Assembly: GCA_002898915.1 (NCBI GenBank) | Contig: BEHO01000014.1 | Coordinates: 1-11,344, forward strand | Reading direction: 5' to 3' | DNA: 11,344 bases | Source: a bacterium HR12 | GTDB lineage: Bacteria; Actinomycetota; UBA4738; HRBIN12 | Shown here: positions 1-7,545 of the stretch, in pieces | Layout: each line of letters opens with the position of its first letter | Numbering within the stretch: the stretch's first letter is position 1 | The notes under the pieces: model-generated | Told to the model about the DNA's origin: nothing | The model's input: only the letters and a program-made list of their open reading frames with translations | Database searches by the model: none | Made by a program: the position numbers and the translations under genes

Positions 1-939
1 GATATCGCGGCCGAGCGCATCGAGCGTCTGTCGCACCGCCGCGCCCTCGACGTGGAGCGGGCCGCCCCCCGGGTACCCGAGGACCGCGCCGCCGGCGCCC
101 CGGTCGACCTCCGTCCGGGCGAGCGGGAGCGGCGGTCCGAGCGGCTCCGCGAGGAGCAGGACCGCGAGATCGAGCTCCGGGTCGAAGGCCACGGTGATCG
201 CGCGGGTGCTCGCGCCGTCGGCGCGGCTCACCTGCGGCTCGCCGACGCCCGCCACCACGTGGGCGTTCGTGACGACGTAGCGGTCGGCGACGACGAAACC
301 GCTGCCCTCTTGGATCTGGTCGCAGGCGCGACCCAGGATCTTGACCGTGCTGCCGGACGCGAGCTGGGCCGCCCGCGTCGCCTGGCGCGCGGTGGGGCCG
401 TCCACGGGCGCCGCCGGGGTCGGCGGGATCCCCTCGAAGACCTCGGGGAAGCCGAAGCGGTTGAGGAAGCGGCGGACCTGGCCCATGGCCGGGGGCGGGT
501 CCGGCAGGGTCGAGTCCAGGCCGCGCACGATCGCGGACCCCCGAACCTCGGCGGCGATCTGCGGGAACGGGCCGTTCGCCAGGTTCAGGGCGATGAACCA
601 GATGACGAGGAGGGTCGCGAGGAGCGTGACCCCGGCGCCCCCGGCCGCGTCGAGCGCTCCGAACCGCGAGCGGCGAGCCCGGTCCCGCATCCGCGTTCCG
701 AGGAGCCACCCGGCGGCCTCGCCGAGCGCGGCGCCGGACAGGAGCGCGCCGAGGGTCACGAACGCCTCCGACGCCGGGTCGCCGAGGGGTGCGGCGAGGC
801 GGGGCGCCAGCAGGGCGCCCACCGCGAGGCCGAGGAGCAGCCCCCCGTAGGTGGCGAGCTGCAGCAGGGCGCCGCGGCGGTACCCGGACACGACGGCGAC
901 GGTGAGGAGGACGGCGAGCAGCACGTCGAGCCCGTTCAC
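1..939 (-). CDS. MarP-like membrane serine protease (CvpA domain + trypsin-like domain), C-terminus cut by window edge
   Basis: This is the N-terminal 313 residues of a membrane-anchored periplasmic/extracytoplasmic serine protease. The GTG start at 937-939 opens a frame that runs to base 1 without a stop. Residues 1-120 contain four hydrophobic segments (about 5-19, 24-45, 59-81 and 101-121), as in the CvpA/colicin V production family. From about residue 195 a chymotrypsin/HtrA-like fold begins: a GSGFVV strand (212-217), TNAHVV with the catalytic His227, and DLAVL with the catalytic Asp257. The nucleophilic Ser should lie beyond the window. The spacing His227-Asp257 and a Cys206 placed 21 residues before the His resemble Mycobacterium tuberculosis MarP (Rv3671c), which is needed for acid tolerance and has a disulfide from that region. 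No Shine-Dalgarno sequence precedes the GTG; a GATACT box ends 6 bases upstream, suggesting a leaderless transcript. The gene diverges from the phosphoesterase operon. Family assignment is firm; the MarP role is inferred. Confidence 0.85.
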   Translation of the reverse strand, partial: MNGLDVLLAVLLTVAVVSGYRRGALLQLATYGGLLLGLAVGALLAPRLAAPLGDPASEAFVTLGALLSGAALGEAAGWLLGTRMRDRARRSRFGALDAAGGAGVTLLATLLVIWFIALNLANGPFPQIAAEVRGSAIVRGLDSTLPDPPPAMGQVRRFLNRFGFPEVFEGIPPTPAAPVDGPTARQATRAAQLASGSTVKILGRACDQIQEGSGFVVADRYVVTNAHVVAGVGEPQVSRADGASTRAITVAFDPELDLAVLLLAEPLGPPLPLARTEVDRGAGGAVLGYPGGGPLHVEGAAVRQTLDALGRDI

Positions 940-945
940 GTCCGC

Positions 946-951
946 AGTATC
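946..951 (-). promoter_or_regulatory. Candidate -10 box (GATACT) of the MarP-like gene
   Basis: Read on the minus strand, GATACT matches five of six positions of the TATAAT consensus pattern TAnnnT/GATACT seen at actinobacterial promoters. It ends six bases before the GTG start, so transcription would begin at or next to the start codon. There is no purine-rich ribosome binding site between the box and the start, which fits leaderless translation. No convincing -35 box is seen 16-18 bases upstream. Confidence 0.45.
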
Positions 952-987
952 GCGCGGGAGGGGCTCGGACGACGCGGCGCGCCCCGG

Positions 988-993
988 TAGACT
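988..993 (+). promoter_or_regulatory. Candidate -10 box (TAGACT) of the phosphoesterase-cDPG-rho operon
   Basis: TAGACT stands nine bases before the ATG at 1003. The same hexamer at the same nine-base distance precedes the phosphatase gene at 10685. Such spacing puts the transcription start within a few bases of the start codon. The purines between the box and the ATG (GGGGCGAG) could act as a weak ribosome binding site, so a very short leader is the alternative to a leaderless message. A -35 box is not obvious. This is probably the main promoter of the following operon. Confidence 0.5.
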
Positions 994-1002
994 CGGGGCG
1001 AG

Positions 1003-1797
1003 ATGGTCACCATCGCCCACATCTCCGACCCCCACGTGGGCTCGCCGTACTTCGTCCCCAACATGATGCAGCGGGTCATCGCCGAGCTGAACGAGCTCCG
1101 CCCCGACGTCGTCATCAACACCGGCGACCTGACGAACGAGGGCTACCGGCAGGAGTACAAGACCTGGTTGGCGTACGCGGAGCGGATCGAGGCGCCGATG
1201 CACACGGTGCCGGGCAACCATGACGCCCGCAACGTGGGCTACCTCCACTTCGAGGAACTCATCGGCCCCCGGTACTGGAGCGTCGAGGTCCAGGGGGTGC
1301 GGATCGTGGGGGTCGACTCGAGCGAGCCCGACCTGAACGAGGGCATGGTCGGGCGCATGCACTACGGCTGGATCCAGCAGCAGTTCGCGCAGCCGGCCGA
1401 GGTGAAGATCTTCGTCCTGCACCACCACCTCCTGCCGATCCCCGGCACGGGGCGGGAGCGGAACATCGCGATCGACGCGGGCGACGTCCTCGAGGAGCTG
1501 GTCACGGCGGGGGTGAACATCGTGCTGTCCGGGCACAAGCACGTGCCCTACGTCTGGCACCTCGAGAACCTGTGGATCGCGAACGCCGGGACCGTGGCGT
1601 CCCTGCGCGTGCGCGGCTACACGAAGCCCTGCTACAACGTGGTCGAGATCGATGGTGACGAGGTGCGCATCATGCGGCGCTACCCCTTCGGGGGCGCCTC
1701 GATGATCGCCCACTTCTCGCTCTCCACCGACGAGCAGTACTACCGGGAGTTCGAGCCGCCGGTCCAGCAACGAGCCACGGCACCGCTCGGCGACTGA
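1003..1797 (+). CDS. Calcineurin-like metallophosphoesterase (CpdA/class III phosphodiesterase type)
   Basis: A 264-residue cytoplasmic metallophosphoesterase with the complete two-metal signature: DPH (Asp9, His11), GD (Gly41-Asp42), GNHD (71-74), a histidine run HHH (140-142) and GHKH (177-180). This set and order is that of the CpdA/Rv0805/class III cyclic-nucleotide phosphodiesterase group, which hydrolyses phosphomonoesters or phosphodiesters with Fe/Mn pairs. No signal peptide or membrane segment is present. The ATG at 1003 follows a TAGACT promoter box. The gene is the first of a same-strand operon, and the synthetase gene starts 24 bases after its stop. The actual substrate cannot be read from the motifs. 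cAMP phosphodiesterase is the default annotation, but the position next to a cyclic diphosphoglycerate synthetase makes hydrolysis of that product, or of another phosphorylated metabolite, a fair alternative. Confidence 0.85.
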   Translation: MVTIAHISDPHVGSPYFVPNMMQRVIAELNELRPDVVINTGDLTNEGYRQEYKTWLAYAERIEAPMHTVPGNHDARNVGYLHFEELIGPRYWSVEVQGVRIVGVDSSEPDLNEGMVGRMHYGWIQQQFAQPAEVKIFVLHHHLLPIPGTGRERNIAIDAGDVLEELVTAGVNIVLSGHKHVPYVWHLENLWIANAGTVASLRVRGYTKPCYNVVEIDGDEVRIMRRYPFGGASMIAHFSLSTDEQYYREFEPPVQQRATAPLGD

Positions 1798-1810
1798 TCC
1801 TGCGGCCCTC

Positions 1811-1816
1811 GGGAGG
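1811..1816 (+). promoter_or_regulatory. Ribosome binding site deciding the GTG start of the cDPG synthetase
   Basis: GGGAGG lies five bases before the GTG at 1822. It is the only good Shine-Dalgarno match near the beginning of the frame, and the first residues after it (MRVLVLVDGEHYPP) look like the start of a Rossmann-type strand, so the GTG is preferred over later in-frame starts. Confidence 0.6.
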
Positions 1817-1821
1817 CGCGC

Positions 1822-3153
1822 GTGAGGGTCCTCGTCCTCGTGGATGGCGAGCACTACCCGCCGGTCACCCGGTGGGGGATCGCGGCCGTGCGGGCGCGTG
1901 GACACGAGGTGCTGGGGGCGCTCCTGGTCGGCGGGGCGGAGAAGCTCGCGGCCGGCGCGGTCCCGGACCTCGGCGTGCCGACCCGCGCCGCGGGCGGGGA
2001 TCCGCGGGGGGCGCTCGCGGCGACCATCGACGAGCTCGCGCCGGAGGGCGTCGTGGACCTCTCGGACGAGCCGGTCCTCGGCTACCGGGAGCGGATGGAG
2101 CTCGCCGCCGTCGCGCTCGCCCGGGGTCTCCCGTACCTCGGGGCGGACTTCCGGCTCGACCCGCCGATCGCCGGCCCGCCCCTCGGGGCGCCGACGGTCG
2201 CGGTGATCGGCACGGGGAAGCGGACCGGGAAGACGGCGATCGCGGGGGAGCTGGCGCGCGTCGCGGCCGCGACGGACCGGAACCCCATCGTCGTGGCCAT
2301 GGGGCGGGGCGGGCCGCCCGAGCCCCAGGTGGCCCCGGCGGGTTCGGTGACGCTCGAGGGGCTGCTCGCGCTGGTGCGGGCGGGCGAGCACGCCGCCTCG
2401 GACTACCTGGAGGACGCGGTGACCACCGGGGTGACCACGATCGGGGCCAGGCGGGCCGGCGGGGGGCTCGCGGGAGCCCCGTACGTCTCGAGCGTCCGAC
2501 TGGCGGCGGAGCTCGCCGTGGGGATGGGCGCGGGGCTCGTGGTGCTGGAGGGCAGCGGGTCCTCGATCCCGCCCGTGCCGTGGGACGCCGGCGTGCTGGT
2601 CGTTCCCGCCTCCGTGAACCCCGAGTACCTGGCGGGGTACCTGGGGCCCCTCCGGCTGTTGCTATCGGACCTGGTCGTTGTTACGATGGCGTCTGGCCCG
2701 ACCGGGCATGAGCACCTCTCCACCTTGAGATCCCACGTTCGGCGGTTGCGCGACGATGCCCGGTTCGTCGTAACGGGGTTCGAGCCGCTGCCGCTGGGTG
2801 ACGTGCGGGGGCGGGACGTGTTCTTCGCCACGACGGCGCCGCCCGAGGTCGCCGCGGCCCACGCGGCCCACCTGGAGGCGGCGCACGGGTGCCGCGTGGT
2901 GGGATGGAGCGCCCGCCTGGCGGACCGGGCCGGGCTGACCGAGGAGATGGAGGCAGCGCCCAGGTACGACGTGCTCCTCACCGAGCTGAAGGCGGCGGCG
3001 GTCGACGTGGCCTGCGATCGGGCGCTCCGGCGGGGCGCGGAGATCGTGTTCGTGGACAACCGCGCCGTCCCCCTGGAGGGGGAGCCGGACCTCCGTGGAG
3101 AGCTCCTCCGGACGATCGAGCGGGCGGAGGGGCGGTTCCAGGAGCGGCGATAG
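1822..3153 (+). CDS. cpgS: Cyclic 2,3-diphosphoglycerate synthetase
   Basis: A 443-residue protein that I recognise as the cyclic 2,3-diphosphoglycerate synthetase family. The enzyme uses ATP to close 2,3-bisphosphoglycerate into the cyclic pyrophosphate cDPG, a thermoprotective and phosphate-storing solute of Methanothermus, Methanopyrus and Methanothermobacter. The N-terminal domain (1-about 120) begins VLVDGEHYPP. It is followed by a P-loop GTGKRTGKT at 130-138 with Lys137, a second nucleotide-binding-type strand LEGSGSS at 242-248, and a C-terminal part with TELKAAAVD (387-395) and VDNRAV (411-416). The length is close to that of the methanogen enzymes (about 460). The GTG start has a GGGAGG site; the stop is three bases before the kinase gene that makes its substrate. 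Residues 280-317 are coded by unusually rare codons (TTG, CTA, GTT, AGA, GTA) and include a promoter-like sequence. The role in bacteria is inferred; assignment by family resemblance is fairly strong, helped by the kinase neighbour. Confidence 0.85.
   Translation: MRVLVLVDGEHYPPVTRWGIAAVRARGHEVLGALLVGGAEKLAAGAVPDLGVPTRAAGGDPRGALAATIDELAPEGVVDLSDEPVLGYRERMELAAVALARGLPYLGADFRLDPPIAGPPLGAPTVAVIGTGKRTGKTAIAGELARVAAATDRNPIVVAMGRGGPPEPQVAPAGSVTLEGLLALVRAGEHAASDYLEDAVTTGVTTIGARRAGGGLAGAPYVSSVRLAAELAVGMGAGLVVLEGSGSSIPPVPWDAGVLVVPASVNPEYLAGYLGPLRLLLSDLVVVTMASGPTGHEHLSTLRSHVRRLRDDARFVVTGFEPLPLGDVRGRDVFFATTAPPEVAAAHAAHLEAAHGCRVVGWSARLADRAGLTEEMEAAPRYDVLLTELKAAAVDVACDRALRRGAEIVFVDNRAVPLEGEPDLRGELLRTIERAEGRFQERR
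2659..2687 (+). promoter_or_regulatory. Candidate internal promoter (TTGCTA - 17 bp - TACGAT) within cpgS
   Basis: A -35-like TTGCTA at 2659-2664 and a -10-like TACGAT at 2682-2687 are separated by exactly 17 bases. Each matches four of six positions of the sigma-70 consensus, including TTG and the TA...T of the -10. The site lies in a local AT-richer island within the synthetase gene, where rare codons are used, which is unusual for this genome. It would give a transcript starting near 2694 and covering the kinase, transaldolase, rho, rpmE and DUF1385 genes without the phosphoesterase and synthetase. It is a sequence match only. Confidence 0.35.
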
Positions 3154-3156
3154 GAC

Positions 3157-4110
3157 ATGACGAGGGACAAGAAGAGCCCGCACATCCTGATCTCGAACCG
3201 GGAGCCGGGACTCCCGTACTCGAAGGGCCTCATGGCTTCGCAGGTCATGGTCACGGGGCTCTCGCCCGTGCGGGCGTACCAGGTGGCCGAGGAGATCGAG
3301 GCGCGCCTGCTCGAGCTCGGCCTCCCCACGGCGACGAGCGAGACGCTGGACCGCCTGACGCTCGCGGTGCTCGAGGAGGTGGCCGGCGAGCGGTACGCCA
3401 AGAACTACCTGCGGTGGCGGGAAGTGGAGGCCCTCGATGTGCCCCTCGTCGTGCTCATCGGTGGGACCACGGGGGTCGGCAAGTCCACGATCGCGACGCA
3501 GCTCGCCGCGCGCCTGGGGATCGTGCGCGTCGTGGCCAGCGACGCGGTGCGGGAGGTCATGCGGGCGATGTTCTCGCGGGAGCTCATGCCGGCGCTCCAC
3601 GCCTCGTCGTTCGAGGCCGGGGCGGCGCTCCGGGAGCCGCCGGGCCGCGACGCGGCGATCGTGGGGTTCCGCGAGCAGACCTCGGCCGTGGCCGTCGGAC
3701 TCCAGGCGCTCGTGGAGCGGGCGGCGATCGAGGGGACCGACATCATCCTGGAGGGCGCGCACATCGTCCCGGGCTTCCTGAACGAGGAGGCCTGGCGGGA
3801 CCGCGTCCTCGCGGTCCCCGTGGTGATCACCGTGGAGGACGAGGACGTCCACCGGCGGCACTTCGTCGCGCGCTGGAGCGACCACGAGGGGCGTCCCGCC
3901 GGCCGGTACCTCGAGGGCTTCGAGAACATCCGGCGGATCCAGCGATTCATCAAGAGCCAGGCGCTCTCGCACGGCGTTCCGGTCGTGCCGAACTACGACT
4001 TCGACCACACGCTCGCGGCCGTCATCGACCTCATCATGGAGCGCGCGATGGAGCGCGCCGCCGAGATCGGGTCCCCGCGCCGCAGCGCCGCTGAGGGGGG
4101 TGGCAGGTGA
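3157..4110 (+). CDS. pgk2: 2-phosphoglycerate kinase (ATP-cone + P-loop kinase)
   Basis: A 317-residue kinase expected to phosphorylate 2-phosphoglycerate to 2,3-bisphosphoglycerate with ATP, the first committed step towards cyclic 2,3-diphosphoglycerate. Residues about 8-95 resemble an ATP-cone regulatory domain (start ILISNREPGLPYSKG), which is also found in the methanogen enzymes. The kinase core has a Walker A loop GTTGVGKST at 103-111 with Lys109, a Walker B-like strand IILEGAHIVPG at 196-206, and a basic lid-like helix RRHFVARW at 233-240. No signal peptide or membrane segment is present. The ATG is preceded by AGGAG at 3140-3144. The gene begins three bases after the cpgS stop, and its TGA overlaps the GTG of the transaldolase, so it is clearly cotranscribed and probably translationally coupled. 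The ATP cone suggests control by adenine nucleotide levels. The family is well recognised; activity in this host is inferred. Confidence 0.88.
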   Translation: MTRDKKSPHILISNREPGLPYSKGLMASQVMVTGLSPVRAYQVAEEIEARLLELGLPTATSETLDRLTLAVLEEVAGERYAKNYLRWREVEALDVPLVVLIGGTTGVGKSTIATQLAARLGIVRVVASDAVREVMRAMFSRELMPALHASSFEAGAALREPPGRDAAIVGFREQTSAVAVGLQALVERAAIEGTDIILEGAHIVPGFLNEEAWRDRVLAVPVVITVEDEDVHRRHFVARWSDHEGRPAGRYLEGFENIRRIQRFIKSQALSHGVPVVPNYDFDHTLAAVIDLIMERAMERAAEIGSPRRSAAEGGGR

Positions 4111-4769
4111 AGCTCTTCCTGGACACGGCCAACATCGAGGAGATCCGCGAGATCAACCGCTGGGGGGTGCTCGGCGGCGTCACGACGAACCCGACGCTCG
4201 TGGCCAAGGAACGCTCAGACCCCCTCCAGGTGTGGAAGGAGATCCTCGCCGAGGTGGCGGGGCCCGTGTCGCTCGAGACGACCGAGCTGGATGCCGATGG
4301 GATGTACCGGCAGGGCGTGGAGCTCGCGGGGCTCGGCCCCAACGCGGTCGTGAAGGTGCCGATGACGCCGGCGGGCCTCGAGGCGGGCTCGCGCCTGGTC
4401 CGGGACGGGGTGAAGATCAACGTGACGCTGGTGTTCTCGCCCGCGCAGGCTATCCTTGCAGCGGAGATCGGCGCGTTCATCGTCTCGCCGTTCCTCGGGC
4501 GGCTGGACGACGTGAGCGCCGACGGGCTGGATCTGCTCCGACGGATCTGCGAGATCTACCAGGTCCAGGGGTACGAGACGAACGTGCTCGCCGCGTCGTT
4601 GCGCCACCCGATGCACGTGGTGGAGGCGGCGAGCGCGGGGGCGGACATCGCGACGATGCCGTACGCGGTGTTCCGACAGTTGGTGAAACACCCCCTCACC
4701 GACATCGGGTTGGAGAGGTTCCTCCAGGACTGGAAGGGCCTGCAGGAGGAGCTGAAGGAAGGAGCCTAG
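4107..4769 (+). CDS. tal: Transaldolase, small TalC/FSA-type subfamily
   Basis: A 220-residue TIM-barrel Schiff-base aldolase that moves a dihydroxyacetone unit between sugar phosphates in the non-oxidative pentose phosphate pathway. Visible motifs are LDTAN with Asp6, GVTTNPTL (24-31), and VVKVPMT with the Schiff-base Lys83. The family contains both true transaldolases and fructose-6-phosphate aldolases. Here Glu57 occupies the position where E. coli FSA has the diagnostic Gln59, and Phe129 (SPFLGRLD) replaces its Tyr131, so transaldolase activity is favoured. The GTG start overlaps the kinase stop by four bases (GTGA) and has a G-rich Shine-Dalgarno stretch about 4095-4101. The TAG stop is one base before the rho start. 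Ribose-5-phosphate isomerase B of the same pathway lies at the far end of the window. Confidence 0.9.
4755..4764 (+). promoter_or_regulatory. Ribosome binding site supporting the TTG start of rho
   Basis: AAGGAAGGAG, placed six bases before TTG at 4771 and inside the last codons of the transaldolase gene, is the best Shine-Dalgarno match in the window. It decides the start, because no ATG or GTG occurs nearby in the rho frame and the residues directly after TTG are already the conserved Rho N-terminal helix. Confidence 0.7.
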
Positions 4770-4770
4770 G

Positions 4771-6387
<1,617 letters not shown>

Positions 6388-6411
6388 GCTGTCGGGTCTG
6401 GAGGAGCGACG

Positions 6412-6621
6412 ATGAAGCAGGGCATCCATCCCGAATACGTGCTCGCCACGGTCCACTGCTCGTGCGGGAACACGTTCCAGACCCGCAGCACGAAGGCCGA
6501 GCTCCGGGTCGAGATCTGCTCCCGGTGCCACCCCTTCTACACGGGCAAGCAGAAGCTCGTGGACACGGGCGGCCGCGTGGAGCGGTTCCAGCGGCGGTAC
6601 GGCCGCACGGCGAGCGCCTAG
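6412..6621 (+). CDS. rpmE: 50S ribosomal protein L31, zinc-binding form
   Basis: A 69-residue L31 with the four zinc-binding cysteines of the C+ form (Cys16 and Cys18 in HCSCGN, Cys36 and Cys39 in [12 protein letters not shown]) and the conserved [12 protein letters not shown] tail. It bridges the two ribosomal subunits. GGAGGAG at 6400-6406 is five bases before the ATG. The rho-rpmE pairing is conserved in many Gram-positive bacteria; the gene follows rho by 24 bases and must share its transcript. A zinc-free paralogue, if present, is outside the window. Confidence 0.97.
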
Positions 6622-6630
6622 CGCGGCCGG

Positions 6631-7545
6631 ATGGCGGGGCAGCCACGGCCGCGCGCCGAGCCCTTCTACGGCGGTCAGGCCGTCGTGGAGGGCGTCATGA
6701 TGCGCGGGCGCCACGTCTGGGCCGTCGCCGTGCGGCGTCCCGACGGCTCGCTCCACCTCGAGTCCCACGGGATCCGATCGATCGCCGACCGCCATCCCAT
6801 CCTGCGTCGGCCCCTCCTGCGGGGGGTGGTCGCCCTCGGGCAGGCCCTCGCGATCGGGTTCCGGGCGCTCGCGATCTCGGCCCGGGAGTCGGCGCCGGAG
6901 GAGGAGCAGCTCAGCTCGCGCCAGATGGCGGTCTCGATGGCGATCGCGGTCGCCCTGTTCCTCGGCCTCTTCATCGTGCTGCCGGCGCTCGCGTTCCGTT
7001 GGGTCGGGCACCGGGTGGACGCGAGCCTGCTGGTGAACGCGGGCGAGGGCGTGTTCCGCGTCGCCCTGTTCCTCGGCTACCTCGCGCTGATCGGTCGGAC
7101 CCGGGAGATCCGGCGGGTCTTCGCCTACCACGGGGCGGAGCACAAGACGATCGCCGCCTACGAGCACGGCGAGGAGCTCACGCCGGAGCGCGTGGACCGG
7201 TACCCGACGCTCCACGTCCGGTGCGGCACGAACTTCCTCCTCCTCGTGATGGTCATCACCATCTTCGTCTTCGCCCTGTTCGGGAGCCCGGGGATCTGGT
7301 GGCGGATCGGCTCGCGGATCGTGGCCATCCCACTCATCGCCGGCCTCGCCTTCGAGATGCTCCGCCTCGGGGCCCGGTACCCGGAATCCCGGCTGATCCG
7401 CGCCCTCATGCTCCCCGGCCTGTGGCTCCAGGAGATCCCCGCCCGGCCGCCGGAGCCGGACATGATCGAGGTGGCGATCGCCTCGTTCAACGAGGTCCTG
7501 CGGCGCGAGGCCGAGCACGAGGCCCAGGGGCCGTCGACCGCCTGA
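6631..7545 (+). CDS. DUF1385 family membrane protein (YqhQ-like)
   Basis: A 304-residue integral membrane protein of the DUF1385 family, whose biochemical function is not established. The family's hallmark segments are visible: GGQAVVEGVMMRG (14-26) near the N-terminus, and YHGAEHK (166-172) followed by a conserved E-x-x-x-HVRCGTNF stretch (about 183-202). Four hydrophobic segments are seen at about 99-122, 141-156, 202-219 and 228-243. The conserved His/Glu/Cys cluster next to the membrane hints at metal binding or catalysis, but nothing more can be claimed. The ATG is nine bases after the rpmE stop with no clear Shine-Dalgarno site, so translation may depend on coupling to rpmE. The gene commonly sits between rpmE and prfA in Gram-positive genomes, as here. 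The stop codon lies inside a 9-bp triplication. Confidence 0.88.
   Translation: MAGQPRPRAEPFYGGQAVVEGVMMRGRHVWAVAVRRPDGSLHLESHGIRSIADRHPILRRPLLRGVVALGQALAIGFRALAISARESAPEEEQLSSRQMAVSMAIAVALFLGLFIVLPALAFRWVGHRVDASLLVNAGEGVFRVALFLGYLALIGRTREIRRVFAYHGAEHKTIAAYEHGEELTPERVDRYPTLHVRCGTNFLLLVMVITIFVFALFGSPGIWWRIGSRIVAIPLIAGLAFEMLRLGARYPESRLIRALMLPGLWLQEIPARPPEPDMIEVAIASFNEVLRREAEHEAQGPSTA

Follow-up and report, generated by a model that had tools for sequence, protein, structure and literature searches.

A cyclic 2,3-diphosphoglycerate synthetase and kinase pair with a linked metallophosphoesterase in Actinomycetota: a putative module for making and turning over the metabolite

The window analysed here is a stretch of 11,344 nucleotides from bacterium HR12 (Actinomycetota; contig BEHO01000014.1 of assembly GCA_002898915.1, a 1.76 Mb genome that is 66% complete). 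It carries a homologue of cyclic 2,3-diphosphoglycerate (cDPG) synthetase (cDPGS), followed by a homologue of 2-phosphoglycerate kinase (2PGK) and preceded by a gene for a metallophosphoesterase (MPE), the first gene of the operon (Table 1). The original prediction, made from the letters of the DNA, described the synthetase and the kinase as a complete cDPG biosynthesis pair within an actinobacterial rho operon. Both open reading frames and their P-loops lie where it placed them, genes for transaldolase, rho and rpmE follow as it described, and an actinobacterial origin agrees with the nearest named relatives, which are mostly Actinomycetota metagenome assemblies. The genes are closely packed, with gaps of 24 nucleotides (MPE to cDPGS), 3 (cDPGS to 2PGK), -4 (2PGK to transaldolase), 1 (transaldolase to rho), 24 (rho to rpmE), and 9 (rpmE to DUF1385).

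Table 1. Features of the window, followed by the CBS-domain genes of two regions from other phyla.
Feature	Position	Strand	Details
Metallophosphoesterase (MPE)	1003..1797	+	first gene of operon; candidate cDPG / 2,3-bisphosphoglycerate hydrolase
cDPGS homologue	1822..3153	+	GTG start, 443 residues
cDPGS P-loop GTGKRTGKT	2209..2235	+	residues 130-138; K133 and R134 correspond to 2,3-diphosphoglycerate contacts in the archaeal enzyme (PMC10690619)
2PGK homologue	3157..4110	+	ATG start, 317 residues; NF003259, E = 6.2e-87
2PGK P-loop GTTGVGKST	3463..3489	+	residues 103-111, read from the sequence
TalC/FSA-type transaldolase	4107..4769	+	TIGR00875, 269.9 bits (cut-off 245.95); operon neighbour
rho, transcription termination factor	4771..6387	+	TIGR00767, 626 bits; operon neighbour
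rpmE, ribosomal protein L31	6412..6621	+	PF01197, E = 3.3e-35; operon neighbour
CBS-domain protein between 2PGK and double MPE	L168:12232-12666; L156:12221-12655		profile search

Profile searches of Pfam and NCBIfam returned no match for the window cDPGS protein. Its assignment is borne out by solved cDPGS structures, which match it over nearly the whole length (9sxb, E = 1e-90; 8oru and 8ork, E = 9.3e-85). The archaeal synthetase is 36-37% identical to it, homology to the characterised enzyme is full length, including the N-terminal domain, and the predicted fold is very close to that of the archaeal enzyme, again in the N-terminal domain as well. Ten residues that bind 2,3-diphosphoglycerate and Mg/ATP in the archaeal protein are kept in the window (E45 as E40, K46 as K41, K145 as K133, R146 as R134, K149 as K137, T150 as T138, D208 as D194, T353 as T338, E404 as E388, and K406 as K390). 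Among 101 distinct bacterial and archaeal relatives, nine of these are invariant in all 101 and T353 is kept in 100. The original prediction had named the absence of conserved substrate residues as a reason to abandon the assignment; they are conserved in the window and in its relatives. P335 of the structure paper could not be placed, and its number falls on F in the residue count. The kinase has the NCBIfam 2-phosphoglycerate kinase model as its best family (residues 9-302), as had been proposed, and the mevalonate-3-phosphate 5-kinase model reaches only 77 bits; the separate ATP-cone domain that had also been proposed was not found in Pfam at E<=0.001. Elsewhere in the phylum, one genome (G263) has a second 2PGK-like gene (L208:4353-5075) away from its cDPGS locus. 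Both enzymes of cDPG biosynthesis in Methanothermus fervidus (PDB 8ORK, 8ORU) are represented; for the synthetase the likeness runs over the full length, N-terminal domain included, and extends to the KR P-loop and to E45/K46, residues of the partner subunit. Unlike the M. fervidus system, the window is bacterial and E305 of its synthetase is replaced; in the window the two genes are adjacent and an MPE gene joins them. This comparison with M. fervidus covers the proteins.

One gene order recurs, whole or in part, across 60 regions from about 40 families, which were chosen and not random: MPE-cDPGS-2PGK-transaldolase-rho-rpmE-DUF1385-prfA-prmC. MPE occurs in 53 of these regions, in 51 on the same strand and within 400 nucleotides upstream of cDPGS (median gap 20 nucleotides; 22 overlapping or within 4 nucleotides), and 2PGK occurs in 56, in 54 on the same strand and within 400 nucleotides downstream (median -4 nucleotides; 36 at 4 nucleotides or less). 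Five long regions (L069, L070, L084, L094, and L096) have no rho or transaldolase match, and in these MPE, cDPGS, and 2PGK still lie close together, with altered spacing, order, or strand in L094 and L096. In family f14, MPE and cDPGS are found together and the kinase is elsewhere.

The gene for cDPGS is present in all 23 genomes of the class that were examined, the window's own included, which is far beyond chance. Across the phylum, 396 genomes (90% completeness requested; the window's own genome apart) were searched at thresholds of E<=1e-3 for cDPGS, E<=1e-20 for MPE, E<=1e-10 for 2PGK, and E<=1e-20 for the operon transaldolase. We found cDPGS in 154 genomes, belonging by eye to 35 families if G185 is set apart, where the match (E = 6e-4) is probably spurious; MPE was found in 155 and 2PGK in 153. 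Counted by eye, 34 of the 35 cDPGS-carrying families also have MPE and all 35 have 2PGK. Joint counts for cDPGS and MPE were 151 genomes with both, 3 with cDPGS only, 4 with MPE only, and 238 with neither (phi 0.96), and those for cDPGS and 2PGK were 152, 2, 1, and 241 in the same order (phi 0.98), so that the pairing of synthetase and kinase that the original prediction proposed to map is seen in 152 genomes, with the two apart in 3. All three genes occur together in 150 genomes and none of them in 237. The control, the operon transaldolase (176/396), gave 92 genomes with both, 62 with cDPGS only, 84 with transaldolase only, and 158 with neither (phi 0.25); because of this weak co-occurrence it is probably an operon neighbour and not part of the cDPGS module. 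Hitch-hiking within the operon was rejected as the source of the MPE link in the phylum, on the strength of this control and of the regions outside the rho operon.

Within the phylum, MPE is therefore linked to cDPGS nearly as tightly as 2PGK is. The description of the pair as a complete system left out the upstream MPE. The proposed tie to growth-related genes is less well supported: the position in the rho operon is old and widespread, but the gene set also turns up elsewhere, and the transaldolase follows it only loosely. None of the three genes was found in four genomes whose families otherwise carry them (G050 in f25, G155 in f9, and G186 and G257 in f47), a pattern that looks like joint loss, and two f24 genomes (G081 and G276) have an MPE match but no cDPGS or 2PGK. 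Single genomes depart from the pattern in other ways: in G051 the only one of the three to give a match is 2PGK (E = 7e-42), and in G173 cDPGS and MPE are matched but 2PGK is not. One carrier, in family f14, is the cultured Rubrobacter xylanophilus DSM 9941 (G060).

The predicted structure of the MPE (mean predicted local distance difference test score, pLDDT, of 86) shows the two-metal phosphoesterase fold that is also seen in purple acid phosphatases, in Rv0805, and in GpdQ. In two-metal phosphoesterases the metal ligands are contributed by the motif set DxH, GD, GNHD, H, and GHxH; in alignments of 32 and 33 sequences, D9, H11, G41, N72, H73, D74, H140-H142, H178, and H180 are invariant, and D42 is at least 90% conserved in both. 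The subfamily signatures HHH...GRER and RxRG are conserved as well, and R118, R151, R204, and K179, invariant in these alignments, might serve to bind a strongly charged substrate. Phosphomonoesters, diesters, and pyrophosphates are all substrates of enzymes with this fold, so opening of a cyclic pyrophosphate by the MPE is plausible. We analysed phylogeny in a tree of 76 rows (the window MPE, 52 of the 53 region MPEs with the truncated L087 omitted, 19 others, and four half-proteins). One clade holds 50 operon copies and three f14 paralogues (support 96/88), a second holds 16 unlinked and two linked copies (L094 and L096; support 92/96), and the MPE of L075 sits on a long branch whose placement is uncertain. 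Two clades are thus present in the phylum, and therefore the counts of MPE presence given above mix both. The unlinked copies (L189-L207) belong mostly to the second clade, whose members L094 and L096 lie near cDPGS and 2PGK; additional first-clade copies occur in family f14, that of R. xylanophilus. The HHH...GRER signature was tried as a motif exclusive to cDPGS-linked MPEs and rejected, as it occurs in 52/53 region MPEs and also in 18/19 unlinked ones.

A second architecture was found outside the phylum. Among the best 80 of 434 cDPGS relatives in a scan of genome contigs, most are from Actinomycetota or its subgroups, with six from Bacillota, one from Cloacimonadota, two from Thermoplasmata, and one from a Thorarchaeota genome, whose phylum we take to be the Asgard archaea. 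The Cloacimonadota (L168) and Thermoplasmata (L156) regions share the order cDPGS, 2PGK, a CBS-domain protein of 144 residues, and a tandem double MPE (499 and 497 residues, respectively), whose halves branch apart from the actinobacterial MPEs. The CBS-domain protein is a possible adenylate-sensing regulator of a cDPG cycle. The Thermoplasmata kinase relative carries an ATP-cone domain. The Asgard region L244 has cDPGS, 2PGK, and a double MPE of 511 residues; L245 has the same gene set at 91-98% identity and is counted with it as one lineage, and in L246 cDPGS adjoins 2PGK without an MPE. In Thermoplasmatota, cDPGS was found in 1 of 116 genomes, namely the query's own, too few for a co-occurrence comparison.

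These observations point to a three-gene module of MPE, cDPGS, and 2PGK whose probable role is to convert 2-phosphoglycerate into cDPG and, likely, to degrade the product again by way of the MPE. Synthesis of cDPG by the window enzymes is very likely by analogy with the archaeal enzymes, in which case 2PGK would phosphorylate 2-phosphoglycerate with ATP to give 2,3-bisphosphoglycerate, and cDPGS would use another ATP to join the 2- and 3-phosphates in a cyclic pyrophosphate. Action of the MPE on cDPG or on 2,3-bisphosphoglycerate is only marginally favoured, on genome context; the two-metal enzyme would either cleave the ring or take a phosphate off 2,3-bisphosphoglycerate, and the resulting phosphoglycerate would re-enter glycolysis. 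A hydrolase devoted to this step would be more in keeping with a pool in turnover, serving as a signal or as a reserve of phosphate, energy, or carbon, than with an inert heat protectant.

In a structural paper from 2023, cDPG is said to be exclusive to hyperthermophilic methanogens (PMC10690619), and much the same is stated in a 2025 paper on its in vitro production (PMC12136491). According to a review, it also accumulates in Methanobrevibacter smithii; in Methanothermobacter it is turned over rapidly, with a membrane-bound hydrolase activity, and the M. fervidus synthetase is reported to be reversible (PMC1224877). Genes for cDPGS are described from thermophilic ammonia-oxidising archaea (PMC5797428, PMC7554672, and PMC7819960), where a homologue outside the methanogens was likewise recognised from genomes; those are archaeal thermophiles, and neither a phosphoesterase nor a bacterial cDPGS is mentioned in the portions available. 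A 2PGK cluster of orthologous groups is common to Thermus, Deinococcus, and archaea (PMC1274311). In the literature searched, with partial coverage, we found no study of a bacterial cDPGS operon and no named gene or reference sequence for a cDPG hydrolase. The enzyme names are already in databases; the MPE link, the phylum-wide operon, the second architecture, and the occurrence in a culturable organism seem to be new. Thermoprotection as the sole general role of cDPG was rejected: carriers include groundwater genomes and presumed soil genomes (habitats taken from record titles), and M. smithii is also reported to accumulate the compound (PMC1224877).

Several observations weigh against the module as proposed, and the first concern the pair itself. 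The ATP contact E305 is a serine in the window (S291, 2692-2694), and the nucleotide preference of this synthetase may differ from that of the archaeal enzyme. Glutamate stands here in 69 of the 101 distinct relatives, with A, G, S, D, H, and other residues in the rest, and the position is therefore not diagnostic. The window kinase scores 291.8 bits, under the curated equivalog cut-off of 343 for NF003259, and so do those linked to cDPGS in Thermoplasmata, Cloacimonadota, and Asgard archaea (298.6, 309, and 313 bits, respectively); the window protein is best described as a 2PGK homologue, not a confirmed equivalog. Together with the modest identity to the archaeal synthetase, these features would suit two enzymes whose substrate had become some other small phosphorylated acid, making the archaeal names misleading. 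Against such drift, the residues in contact with 2,3-diphosphoglycerate do not vary and the predicted fold is very close, and we regard it as highly improbable. Papers on Rubrobacter solutes name other compounds (PMC3505630, PMC4148983, and PMC6741124), reports with which a small, fast-turning cDPG pool is compatible.

Other adverse points concern the MPE. Seven of the 60 regions have no MPE nearby; in six of these genomes a match lies elsewhere and in G024 there is none, and the three of these copies placed on the tree (G094, G153, and G182) belong to the second clade. Three genomes have cDPGS without an MPE match (G024, G322, and the doubtful G185), four have MPE without cDPGS (G081, G276, G362, and G390), and the Fisher p values for co-occurrence with cDPGS (1.5e-100 for MPE, 1.3e-107 for 2PGK) come from statistics that ignore phylogeny. 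Of 89 Asgard genomes, 53 have an MPE match (E<=1e-25, with 50% as the highest identity) and 5 have cDPGS (E<=1e-20), four of these with an MPE match as well, and no co-occurrence signal was seen. MPE is common there without cDPGS, which speaks against an exclusive link, and therefore the family has other roles or Asgard lineages use it on another phosphoglycerate. The MPE would fill the same step as the cDPG hydrolase of Methanothermobacter thermautotrophicus, but that activity is membrane-bound and its gene is not named in the portion available (PMC1224877), whereas the window MPE is known from sequence alone and its predicted fold has no membrane segment.

One alternative is that the two enzymes produce cDPG for protection or storage, as methanogens do, while the MPE is an unrelated phosphodiesterase, for example of cyclic nucleotides, that sits in an old operon. 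The nearest solved relatives, the class III cyclic nucleotide phosphodiesterases Rv0805 and Icc/CpdA together with GpdQ, the names CpdA and Icc attached to relatives in records, the Asgard relatives without cDPGS, and the retention of HHH...GRER in the MPE of L195, whose genome has no cDPGS match, all suit this account. The window MPE differs from these solved relatives in that identity is about 20-26% and in the conserved HHH...GRER and RxRG signatures of the cDPGS-linked subfamily. We nevertheless consider it unlikely, given that co-occurrence in the phylum is nearly as tight as for the kinase, that joint absences are seen, that the operon transaldolase behaves otherwise, and that the linkage holds outside the rho operon and in the second architecture of other phyla. 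The MPE also falls far short of the NCBIfam cyclic nucleotide phosphodiesterase models (CpdA NF008359, 38.2 bits against a cut-off of 225; SpdA NF050112, 41.2 against 400), and its best row, an anti-phage phosphoesterase, reaches 61.8 bits against 420.

The last adverse points come from Bacillota, where none of the six cDPGS genomes (completeness not stated) has a 2PGK match at E<=1e-5. Their MPE matches are not close ones (4e-24 for the best), and two of the six have none at 1e-10. In two metagenome-assembled genomes (L161:9041-15219 and L143:2533-8655), cDPGS lies between a GntR/UTRA regulator (PhnF/PhnR-like) and an ATP-binding cassette (ABC) importer that resembles 2-aminoethylphosphonate systems, with genes identified by profile only in L161; these loci perhaps serve uptake of an organophosphate such as cDPG, with the synthetase run in reverse. 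The lack of a kinase match in the six Bacillota genomes, such loci in two of them, the reported reversibility of the M. fervidus enzyme (PMC1224877), and the fact that the kinase would itself make 2,3-bisphosphoglycerate would suit an alternative in which that compound is the true product, for instance as a phosphoglycerate mutase cofactor, and the synthetase homologue has another or a reverse role. The joint presence of kinase and synthetase across Actinomycetota and the retained substrate residues of the synthetase speak against this alternative, and we think it improbable.

The remaining features of the window lie around the module. Beyond DUF1385 are DivIVA, prfA, prmC, and a low-molecular-weight phosphatase-like gene. 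A divergent gene at 1-990 on the minus strand, cut by the contig end, combines CvpA-like (PF02674) and trypsin-like (PF13365) domains and resembles MarP-type proteases. A scan of positions 900-6700 for promoters and terminators and an Rfam scan yielded nothing useful.

Returning to the module of synthetase, kinase, and phosphoesterase, a broader picture can be offered tentatively, as one that we hold possible but do not favour. cDPG could be a bacterial metabolite that is widespread and under active turnover, with the cDPGS-linked MPE as its hydrolase. The three proteins would then form a self-contained cycle, present in Actinomycetota, Cloacimonadota, Thermoplasmata, and Asgard archaea and arranged in two or more architectures. 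The CBS-domain protein found in two of these could sense adenylates, with cDPG as an energy or phosphate buffer or a signal and not mainly a thermolyte, and some Bacillota could take up cDPG and gain ATP by running the synthetase in reverse. Should the enzymes act as predicted, cDPG would be no archaeal speciality and its role would need rethinking. The linked MPE offers a concrete candidate for the cDPG hydrolase step, and the prediction can be tested in a culturable relative, Rubrobacter xylanophilus.

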